From Microbacterium galbinum (GTDB lineage Bacteria; Actinomycetota; Actinomycetes; Actinomycetales; Microbacteriaceae): 64,000 nt of DNA. This document shows, piece by piece, positions 45,571 through 48,203 of the stretch. A program made the translations under genes and the position numbers. The notes beneath the pieces were generated by a model. It was not told the origin of the DNA. It saw nothing but the letters and a program-made list of their open reading frames with translations, and did not search any database. The stretch lies in the NCBI RefSeq assembly GCF_023101185.1, contig NZ_CP078077.1, forward strand, positions 1,269,630 to 1,333,629. Direction: 5' to 3'. Within the stretch, counting starts at the first letter, position 1. Every line of letters starts with the position of its first letter.

Positions 45571-46341
45571 ATGCCCGAGATCCCCCCTGCCCGATTCCGC
45601 CGGTTGCGAGCGCTCGCATCCGGCGTCGCATTCACGGCCGCGACTCTGCTCGCGTTCGGTGCGACATCACCCGCCTCGGCCGTGGTCGTGCCCGACTCGT
45701 ACGAAACCGCCACCTTGACCGCCGCTCCGACGTCGGTGTCCGTCGGTGACACGATCACCGTCAGCGCGGTGTTCACCGGTCTGGTCGACGCCTACGCGTA
45801 CGAGCTCGACATCGCCTACGACCCCGACCTGCTCGCGTTCGTCGCGGACAGCGAGATCCTCCCGACCGGCGGCTTCGGATCGGCGACCGACTCGGGCAGT
45901 GAGATCGCGGTCGCCGCGACCCGGCTCGGCACCTCCCCCGGTCTGACCGGCACGCAGACCCTGGTCACACTCACCTTCACCGCACTCGAGGCGGGCGACG
46001 CCTCGCTCGACATCGCGAACGGACGCATCGTCGACTCGAGCACCGCATCGTCGACGGTCGATTCCGATGCGCCGGGCACGTCGACGACGGTGGAGATCAC
46101 CGCCGATGAGGACACCGAGCCGGGGCCCGGTGACGGAGGCTCCGATGGTGGCTCCGATGGCGGCGATCCCGACACCGGATCGGGTTCGGATTCGGGCTCG
46201 GGTTCCGGATCGGGCACGACGACGGACGGCTCGCTCGCCGTCACGGGCGCGGATGCCGCACCCTGGCTGATCCTCGGTGCGGGAGCCATCGCCGCCATCG
46301 CGGCGGGCACCGTCATCGCCGTTCGACGGAGGACCCGATGA
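45571..46341 (+). CDS. Cohesin-domain surface protein with LAxTG sorting signal
   Basis: Exported protein of 256 aa. Signal peptide with cleavage after SPASA (about residue 37), one cohesin-type domain (about 46-176; SVSVGDTITVSAVFTG, AYAYELDIAYDPDLLAF, TLVTLTFTALEAGDASLDIANGRIVD), a Gly/Ser/Asp linker (180-220), sorting motif LAVTG (222-226), a membrane helix and an RRRTR tail. LAxTG is recognised by class E sortases of high-GC Gram-positives. Cohesins bind dockerins, and the overlapping next gene encodes a dockerin-bearing amidase, so this looks like a one-site anchoring scaffold. Sits between dnaN and recF. Confidence 0.88.
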   Translation: MPEIPPARFRRLRALASGVAFTAATLLAFGATSPASAVVVPDSYETATLTAAPTSVSVGDTITVSAVFTGLVDAYAYELDIAYDPDLLAFVADSEILPTGGFGSATDSGSEIAVAATRLGTSPGLTGTQTLVTLTFTALEAGDASLDIANGRIVDSSTASSTVDSDAPGTSTTVEITADEDTEPGPGDGGSDGGSDGGDPDTGSGSDSGSGSGSGTTTDGSLAVTGADAAPWLILGAGAIAAIAAGTVIAVRRRTR

Positions 46342-48203
46342 CCGCGCACGACACCCGAGCAGAGAAGCCGAGAACCAGGAGAGACACCACTGTGAAGAAG
46401 ACCACACTGCGGATCGTCGCCGCCGTCTCGGTCGTGGGTTCCACGATCGTCGCGGCGGGGATGGCGAGCGGAGCAGCGACGGCGGCGGCACCGGCCACCG
46501 TCAGCCTCCCCCCGTACTACAGCGAGCTCGACGTGACCGGTGACGAGATGGTGACGGCCGCGGATCTGTCCGTCGCCGCCGAATCCCTCGGTCTCACGGA
46601 GTCGTCGCCGGACTGGTCCCGAGTTGCCGTTTTCGATACCGATGCCGACGGCGAGCTCACGATCCTCGATCTCGCCGATCTCTCGCAGCGGATCATCTAC
46701 GACGACGGTCCCTTCGAGCTCGTCGAAGCATCCGTGATCGACATGCAGGCCGCGATGAATGCGGGAGTCGCGACCTCCCAGAGCATCACCCAGGAATACC
46801 TCGACCGGATCGCCGCGTACGACCGCACGGTCGTGCCCGGCGGAAGCCGTCCGCTCAACTCGATCATCACGGTGAACCAGAAGGCCCTCGCGGATGCGGC
46901 TGCGGCCGACGAGATCCGTGCATCCGACGGCATGACGAGCATGCTGCTGGGCGTGCCGATCGCGCTGAAGGACAACTACGACACGGTCGACATGGTCACC
47001 ACCGGTGGATGCGCCTGCTGGAACGAGAACCAGACCGCGACCGACGCGTCGATGGTCAGCGGACTCCGCAGCGACGGCGCCGTGATCCTCGCGAAGGCCA
47101 GCCTCGACGAGTTCGCCTACGGATTCGTCTCGGAGTTCTCCTCGTTCCAGGAGCCGGGAGCGACGTCACTCGTGGCGAGCCCGTACGACACCACCCGGAC
47201 GGCCGGCGGATCCAGCGGTGGCACGGGAGCCGCGATCTCCGCGAACCTCGCGGGCATCGGCTTCGGCACCGACACGGGCGGGTCGATCCGTGTCCCGTCG
47301 TCGTACAACCAGCTCGTGGGTGTCCGCCCCACGGTGGGTCTGGCCAGCCGCGACGGCATCATCCCGCTGGCCCTCTCGCAGGACACCGGTGGGCCGATGG
47401 CTCGTTCCGTCATCGATGCCGCCGTCGCTCTCGACGCGGTGGTGGGAGTCGATGACGCCGATCCCGTCACCGCACGACAGGAGGGCCTCGTGCCCGAGTC
47501 GTACACCTCGTTCCTCGACGCGGATGCGCTCCAGGGCGCGCGGATCGGCTATGTCTCGTCGATGGTGGGAACCAACGCCGGCACCGTGCGGCTCTTCTCC
47601 GAGGCGACCGCAGCGCTGACCGCGCAGGGCGCGACCGTGGTGCCGATCACTCCTCCGTCCGGGTTCTCCGCCGTTCTGAACGAGGGCTCCGGGTCGACGA
47701 ACGAGTTCGTCCACGATCTCGATGAGTACATCGCCACGCATCTCGGCCCCGATGTCGAGGCGCGCACTCTCACCGACATCCTCGCGACGAACAGCTTCGT
47801 CACCTCCCGGCGGTCGATCTACGTGGCGCGCAATGCGGTCACGGACGCGACCTACGAGGGCTGGGCGGGCGAGACCGGTACGCACACCGTGCAGCTCGCG
47901 GCCGGCAAGACGCTCGTGACGCAGATGATGGAGGATCTCGACCTCGACGCGATCGTCTATCCGAGCACGAACGCCTACGGGACCCAGGGGACCAACATGC
48001 GGCTGAGCCCGAACACCGGGATGCCGTCGGTCACCGTGCCGATGGGGCAGACGATCGCGGGTGAGACGCTGCCCGGCAGCGGCGTGAACCTCGAGTTCCT
48101 CGGACGCGACTTCGACGAGGGAACCCTCCTCGGTCTGGCGTACGCGTTCGAGCAGGCGACGGATGCCCGCACGGCGCCGTCGCTCTACGGCCCGCTGCCG
48201 TGA
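46338..48203 (+). CDS. Exported amidase with N-terminal dockerin domain
   Basis: A 621-aa amidase-signature enzyme. Signal peptide (VKKTTLRIVAAVSVVGSTIVAAGMASG) followed by two dockerin-type calcium-binding repeats, DVTGDEMVTAADL (65-77) and DTDADGELTILDL (100-112), then the amidase domain (about 130-610). The catalytic triad is intact: K211 (PIALKDNYD), cis-Ser 292 in GGSSGG and Ser 316 in TDTGGSIRVP. The ATG at 46338 overlaps the cohesin gene as ATGA and has GGAGG five bases upstream; a GTG at 46392 is an alternative that gives a cleaner signal peptide. It hydrolyses amide bonds; the substrate is unknown. Confidence 0.9.
   Translation: MTAHDTRAEKPRTRRDTTVKKTTLRIVAAVSVVGSTIVAAGMASGAATAAAPATVSLPPYYSELDVTGDEMVTAADLSVAAESLGLTESSPDWSRVAVFDTDADGELTILDLADLSQRIIYDDGPFELVEASVIDMQAAMNAGVATSQSITQEYLDRIAAYDRTVVPGGSRPLNSIITVNQKALADAAAADEIRASDGMTSMLLGVPIALKDNYDTVDMVTTGGCACWNENQTATDASMVSGLRSDGAVILAKASLDEFAYGFVSEFSSFQEPGATSLVASPYDTTRTAGGSSGGTGAAISANLAGIGFGTDTGGSIRVPSSYNQLVGVRPTVGLASRDGIIPLALSQDTGGPMARSVIDAAVALDAVVGVDDADPVTARQEGLVPESYTSFLDADALQGARIGYVSSMVGTNAGTVRLFSEATAALTAQGATVVPITPPSGFSAVLNEGSGSTNEFVHDLDEYIATHLGPDVEARTLTDILATNSFVTSRRSIYVARNAVTDATYEGWAGETGTHTVQLAAGKTLVTQMMEDLDLDAIVYPSTNAYGTQGTNMRLSPNTGMPSVTVPMGQTIAGETLPGSGVNLEFLGRDFDEGTLLGLAYAFEQATDARTAPSLYGPLP

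Follow-up and report, generated by a model that had tools for sequence, protein, structure and literature searches.

A cohesin and a dockerin-bearing amidase encoded as a probable one-to-one surface display pair in Microbacterium galbinum and relatives

Cohesin–dockerin clasps are known mainly from the multi-enzyme complexes of anaerobes (PMC12484212, PMC12997984). For Clostridium perfringens, single cohesins and dockerins are described, in a portion of the second paper, on glycoside hydrolases, where they join the enzymes to each other (PMC12997984). Cohesin proteins anchored by sortase through an LPxTG motif are named in sections of the same papers, i.e. ScaE of Ruminococcus flavefaciens (PMC12484212) and cSca5 of Limousia pullorum (PMC12997984). 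Here we analyze two overlapping genes at positions 45571 to 48203 of a 64,000-nucleotide stretch of Microbacterium galbinum DNA (the window; contig NZ_CP078077.1, positions 1,269,630 to 1,333,629 of the forward strand). The first encodes a secreted protein with one cohesin and a LAVTG-type sorting signal, the second a secreted amidase with an N-terminal dockerin. A dedicated cohesin–dockerin pair that would place one amidase on the cell wall is well supported by the co-occurrence of the genes, their conserved overlap, swapped gene orders and natural fusions, and the two proteins probably form a stand-alone surface display system with one receptor and one enzyme.

The pair shares its cohesin and dockerin modules with cellulosomes, but it has a single cohesin and no glycoside hydrolase as cargo, and Pfam detected no carbohydrate-binding module in the two proteins. 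A cellulosome was rejected on the grounds that the genome holds one cohesin and that the dockerin carries no glycoside hydrolase. More similar are the single-cohesin (X82)/dockerin glycoside hydrolases of C. perfringens, which likewise pair outside cellulosomes with one cohesin per protein. Indeed, a C. perfringens cohesin is the closest match both among solved folds (2vo8, Z 17.5, 1.7 Å over 127 residues, using a model of the fused relative G087, see below) and in sequence (NagJ 2jh2, E 1.8e-9). However, the C. perfringens cohesin proteins also carry a glycoside hydrolase, whereas the window encodes a non-catalytic, putative wall anchor and one amidase. A sortase motif on the cohesin protein is shared with ScaE and cSca5; these belong to multi-enzyme complexes with many dockerin proteins, while here, in the Actinomycetota, the genome yielded a single dockerin protein, whose gene adjoins that of the cohesin, and the relatives mostly carry LAxTG. 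For the enzyme, the closest solved structure is peptide amidase (Pam), a member of the amidase signature family, from which the window protein differs by an extra dockerin ahead of the matched region; its activity is predicted from sequence. The features of the locus are as follows:

45571..46341, + strand: gene for a putatively wall-anchored single-cohesin protein, 256 amino acids (open reading frame; Pfam Cohesin, 39.2 bits)
45571..45681, + strand: signal peptide, residues 1-37, AxA at 35-37 (predicted cleavage)
45691..46110, + strand: cohesin domain, residues 41-180, including the TRLGTSPG segment at 117-124 (Pfam, alignment, fold of the fused relative)
46111..46233, + strand: Ser/Gly/Asp-rich linker (sequence)
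46234..46338, + strand: LAVTG sorting signal (46234-46248), hydrophobic segment and RRR tail (sequence)
46338..46341, + strand: ATGA overlap of the cohesin and amidase genes (start at -4 in relatives)
46338..48203, + strand: dockerin-amidase gene, 621 amino acids from ATG (open reading frame; Pfam Amidase, 260 bits; Dockerin_1)
46392..46394, + strand: alternative, perhaps main, amidase start GTG with AGGAG upstream, directly before the signal peptide (sequence; start survey)
46506..46733, + strand: N-terminal dockerin module (Pfam Dockerin_1, 26.4 bits on the module)
46530..46565, + strand: calcium loop 1, ligands D65, T67, D69, T73 and D76 (alignment, sequence)
46635..46670, + strand: calcium loop 2, ligands D100, D102, D104, T108 and D111, followed by the invariant R118 (alignment, sequence)
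46785..47984, + strand: amidase domain, presumed triad K211, S292 and S316 (Pfam range)

Both open reading frames, the ATGA overlap and the two calcium loops were recovered exactly where the initial annotation had placed them. It had read the first product as a secreted protein with one cohesin, and the Pfam Cohesin profile (PF00963) indeed matches residues 53-174 with 39.2 bits, well above the cut-off of 24.1. In an alignment of 46 relatives, a subset picked by hand, 42 of the 46 matched this profile at E 0.01 and the TRLGTSPG segment is strongly kept; A35 and A37 of the signal peptide are invariant in all 21 aligned genus sequences. The Pfam Dockerin_1 profile (PF00404, cut-off 22.9) gives 21.8 bits for the full-length amidase (just under the cut-off), 26.4 bits for the 76-residue module and 26.0 bits in a genome search, so that the profile searches proposed as a check detected both domains. 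In the whole M. galbinum genome, profile searches found a single cohesin and a single dockerin. The latter lies on the enzyme, for which the Pfam Amidase profile (PF01425) scores 260 bits, in line with the earlier view that the dockerin's cargo is a secreted amidase and not a polysaccharide hydrolase.

The two genes co-occur closely. Among 149 Microbacterium genomes, a search with the cohesin protein gave matches in 45, many of them spanning just the linker and sorting signal; matches spanning the cohesin domain are present in 25 (22 close, 3 divergent). The dockerin-bearing amidase was found in 26 genomes and both genes, adjoining, in 25, and no cohesin without the amidase was seen among the 149. 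The sole genome with the amidase only (G138) has a copy with stops that has lost the first half of the dockerin, with no cohesin beside it. By Pfam, a cohesin above cut-off occurs in 17 of the 149, each adjoining the amidase, and Dockerin_1 matches likewise in 17 (14 above cut-off). The matches lie on the amidase in all but G071 and G137; in these two (L120 and L121) the weak matches fall on other long frames, and the Pfam search found no cohesin there.

The same phenomenon is observed beyond the genus. In an order-level survey of 297 genomes from 94 genera, 19 matched the cohesin at E 0.001, strongly in 17 cases, and 17 had a dockerin; the genomes with a strong cohesin and those with a dockerin are the same 17, from 10 genera and 5 families, with the genes within about 2.1 kb of each other. 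Weak cohesin matches in G361 and G403 (E 4.2e-4 and 2.5e-4) came without a dockerin. The co-occurrence in relatives that the initial annotation had proposed to examine is thus borne out at both levels. In a phylum sample of 346 genomes a dockerin was found in one, the window's own, and a Pfam cohesin in two, the only other match being a cohesin of 33.7 bits in a 2131-residue open frame of a distant phylum member (G641, L244). The pair is therefore patchy and, as far as sampled, confined to one order of Actinomycetota (Actinomycetales in GTDB). Among the named genera that carry the amidase are Microbacterium, Curtobacterium, Cellulosimicrobium, Cellulomonas, Oerskovia, Leifsonia, Georgenia, Mycetocola, Demequina and Isoptericola; this named set comprises the best 80 of 177 loci, some of them from genomes that also entered the genus survey, so that the counts are not independent. 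One 3.6-kb contig named Stenotrophomonas maltophilia P13 (L141) carries the amidase at 75% identity, for which contamination seems likelier than transfer.

Within the 80 named loci, 72 have the cohesin gene and 8 lack it. In 7 of the latter the contig ends no more than about 450 bases upstream of the dockerin (L137, L140, L141, L151, L157, L161 and L166), i.e. at or near the expected cohesin gene, and the repetitive linker may hamper assembly there; in the eighth (L128) a deletion has taken out the amidase signal peptide, a portion of loop 1 and the greater part of the cohesin gene. For the arrangement and motif counts we used 69 two-gene pairs (including L136 and excluding L162, and thus differing from the 69 pairs of the coevolution test and trees). 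All of them have the cohesin upstream. The genes overlap in 67, where the second one starts with ATG or GTG at -4 (65 pairs) or with ATG at -1 (2 pairs); a start at -4 is also present in 21 of 21 common-type genus pairs. The coordinates show a flipped order, amidase first and cohesin second, in G191, G373 and G415. Two fusions were found in addition. The first, in G087 (also L178; Microbacterium sp. 2FI), joins cohesin, dockerin and amidase in this order in one 773-residue frame, with a junction sequence unlike the relatives, so that an assembly artefact or a recent deletion is possible. In G336 (L221, L243; G336:C185) the order is dockerin, amidase, cohesin and LAVTG in one 980-residue frame, in a fragmented genome that is 69% complete. 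Both halves are damaged in G138, L128 and L172; the last is open in one frame, and it was not counted as a third fusion because of a frameshift in its cohesin tail and a shortened dockerin. Taken together, the cohesin and the dockerin-amidase appear to be selected together and not merely to be neighbours, and a chance match of the domains was rejected on the basis of the conservation and the co-occurrence.

Two side observations concern these arrangements. Chains of the G336 type contain the cohesin as well as the dockerin and could also polymerise head to tail. Besides the common type, a second, divergent pair occurs in G136 (L085), G007, G070 and G104 (L086-L088), with a longer receptor, a terminal membrane segment, no clear L..TG motif and a 4-base overlap; G136 has both the common and the divergent type and so offers a natural test of pairing specificity.

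The two dockerin-like calcium loops noted initially have intact ligands in the window protein. We aligned it with 50 modules picked by hand from the 80 loci (including L136; the visibly damaged L128 and L172 were excluded, as was L178). In these 51 modules D65, T67, D69 and D76 (loop 1 positions 1, 3, 5 and 12), D100 and D111 (loop 2 positions 1 and 12) and R118 are invariant, and T73, D102, D104 and T108 are conserved at 90% or more. The N-terminal position of the dockerin, which had been called unusual, is not unique, as RfGH16_21 is named in a passage of PMC12484212.

As annotated at the outset, a sorting signal of the LAVTG type is directly readable at residues 222-226 of the cohesin protein, followed by a hydrophobic stretch and RRR. 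The motif of the 69 two-gene pairs is LAxTG in 54, LPxTG in 8 and another L..TG in 6, and one pair lacks it. A search of the M. galbinum genome gave a single sortase, of class E and about 30 kb downstream of the pair. Class E sortases are reported, in a part of PMC5148588, to use LAXTG signals; the features of such a substrate (LAXTG, hydrophobic stretch, basic tail) and a class E sortase are thus present in the same genome.

The structure prediction proposed as a further check was carried out with AlphaFold2 on the cohesin–dockerin part of the fused G087 protein, in place of a complex of the two window proteins. With cohesin rows only, the mean predicted local distance difference test score (pLDDT) was 79.2 and the predicted template modelling score (pTM) 0.62. 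With 50 cohesin and 8 dockerin rows the values were 86.7 and 0.63, and pLDDT by blocks of ten ranged from 83 to 98 for the cohesin and from 84 to 97 for the dockerin; this row set came from a random search for correctly aligning sets (MAFFT; 4 successes) and was chosen for correct alignment and size only. Both domains thus fold well, and the prediction is not confidently negative on the complex, while the domain orientation is not confident. A fold search with the model returned cohesin-bearing entries as matches 1-42 of the 50 listed, and Foldseek matched the G087 cohesin to 2jh2 with E 3.4e-10; integrin, YcnI, pilin and other beta-sandwich matches rank under the cohesins. The matches listed for the whole model mostly span residues 1-135 and tell little about the dockerin. 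Gene trees built from 69 pairs (L128, L136, L172, L178 and 7 contig-cut loci excluded, L162 included, as in the coevolution test) have 29 of 66 splits in common; 18 are well supported in both, and 14 pairs of well-supported splits conflict. The fragment lists leave out L136, L172 and L178.

The domains, their conserved calcium ligands, the operon, the close co-occurrence and the fusions are direct observations. Building on them, we propose that the cohesin protein would be exported and then fixed to peptidoglycan by the class E sortase at LAVTG, and that the amidase would leave the cell via its own signal peptide. Its N-terminal dockerin would fold around two calcium ions and dock on the cohesin, presumably in a calcium-dependent manner; the amidase would thereby be held at the wall, perhaps reversibly, where it may remove C-terminal amides from peptides. 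Of the initial proposal that the two proteins bind and that the enzyme is held at the wall, the dedicated pairing is strengthened by co-occurrence, overlap, flips and fusions, while binding itself stays a proposal. That retention at the wall is the purpose is best supported by G336, where the enzyme chain itself carries LAVTG. On balance we also lean towards a broader reading, in which this one-cohesin, one-dockerin receptor system would be unrelated to polysaccharide breakdown and would represent a self-contained two-gene cassette spread through one Actinomycetota order; calcium could act as the switch between wall retention and release of a peptide-deamidating enzyme, and the clasp would be doubled by covalent fusion in two lineages.

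Several results weigh against this proposal, and two other explanations draw on them. The best 60 of 212 solved-structure matches to a profile of the dockerin module are all calmodulins or calmodulin fusions and include no dockerins, and the Pfam profile EF-hand_7 matches 31 of the 51 modules; in Demequina sediminis (L136, a complete genome) an intact dockerin-amidase stands beside a cohesin broken into two frames, so the two halves do not always decay together. One could therefore suppose that an EF-hand pair merely stabilises the amidase with calcium, that the cohesin binds another protein or a substrate, and that the genes adjoin for regulatory reasons. Sequence alone does not settle the choice between dockerin and EF hand. 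However, Dockerin_1 matches 50 of the 51 modules at E 0.01, with a better best E-value (2e-10 compared to 2.6e-6), all 51 have Asp at position 12 of both loops, and the model has only a three-residue turn, and no helix of 4 or more, directly before loop 1. Asp at position 12 and the lack of a helix before loop 1, which are typical of dockerins rather than of EF hands, favour a dockerin, and the co-occurrence persists through gene-order flips and fusions. We regard the EF-hand explanation as very unlikely.

The other explanation accepts that the proteins bind and sees in the cohesin an activator, folding partner or regulator of the amidase, with a sorting signal that merely keeps the complex near the cell. 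It gains from the G087 fusion, which keeps the cohesin next to the dockerin and has no sorting signal, and from Isoptericola (L162), where the cohesin stops before any sorting signal; anchoring is thus not universal, and contact may outweigh the anchor. A further point against the main proposal is that, for the cohesin protein of the window, the NCBIfam sorting-signal models all score under their cut-offs (21 against 65, 19.3 against 27 and 12.8 against 15.9 bits). Against the regulatory explanation, an L..TG motif of some kind is kept in 68 of the 69 two-gene pairs, and the G336 fusion places the signal on the enzyme chain, and we regard this explanation as unlikely. Equally unhelpful to the anchoring proposal are the tests of the interface. 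Neither G087 model orients the domains confidently at the pTM values given above, and the models neither support nor refute binding. The partial distance correlation between cohesin and dockerin given the amidase is 0.14 (1 of 999 permutations as high; 69 pairs), which is weak and below the 0.34 between cohesin and amidase given the dockerin (same 69 pairs), so that there is no specific sign of interface coevolution.

The enzyme is a serine amidase of the amidase signature family. K211, S292 and S316, presumably the Lys / cis-Ser / Ser catalytic triad of that family, are invariant in 22 of 22 genus sequences, and the match to peptide amidase (1m21, E 1.5e-74) covers residues 125-615. Since this is the closest solved structure, the enzyme may remove C-terminal amides from peptides, and a peptide-amide substrate is possible. 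Its translation may begin inside the overlap-coupled frame: the GTG at 46392 with AGGAG gives a signal peptide of normal length, so the ATGA start may not be the main one. Of 68 pairs, 50 have one or more internal starts with a Shine-Dalgarno-like core of at least 4 bases ahead of them (a count favoured by taking the best of several starts), compared to 31 of 65 for the start at -4. The gene overlap may thus serve coupling while the main amidase start lies internally.

Among the matches listed, the literature search gave no report of such a pair from actinobacteria; a 2009 study by Peer et al. on non-cellulosomal modules could include some of the proteins. Sections of genome papers on Cellulosimicrobium cellulans F16 (PMC4562250) and on Cellulomonas (PMC3544764) report no cohesin or dockerin, and the presence of the pair in other members of both genera qualifies these reports of absence. 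A minimal one-to-one version in actinobacteria would show which role the clasp plays when there is a single enzyme to hold. With about 70 matched pairs, it would also serve specificity studies as a simple display system of natural origin, and anchoring can be tested directly with the two natural fusions of opposite order.

The surroundings of the pair are not conserved. Using 67 of the 80 loci, no wide recurring neighbour genes were found beside it, the widest cluster spanning 5 of 18 genus labels; a larger operon was rejected on this basis, and the pair appears self-contained because conserved neighbours are absent in the 67 loci. The initial annotation had counted the position between dnaN and recF as adding to the oddity, and the synteny survey of dnaN-recF gaps does not support a meaning of the location. 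The pair lies there in just 4 of the 25 Microbacterium genomes that have it (G000, G128, G077 and G075), and recF was found in 57 of 59 genus genomes searched. We examined 30 of these loci: in 28 both genes were in reach and the gap measured 41-850 bases, and of the other two, one is the window, whose gap is occupied by the pair, and one runs into a contig end. Among the 28, the widest gap (about 850 bases) belongs to G034 (L255). On these counts a functional meaning of the location was rejected, and the position at the origin seems incidental.

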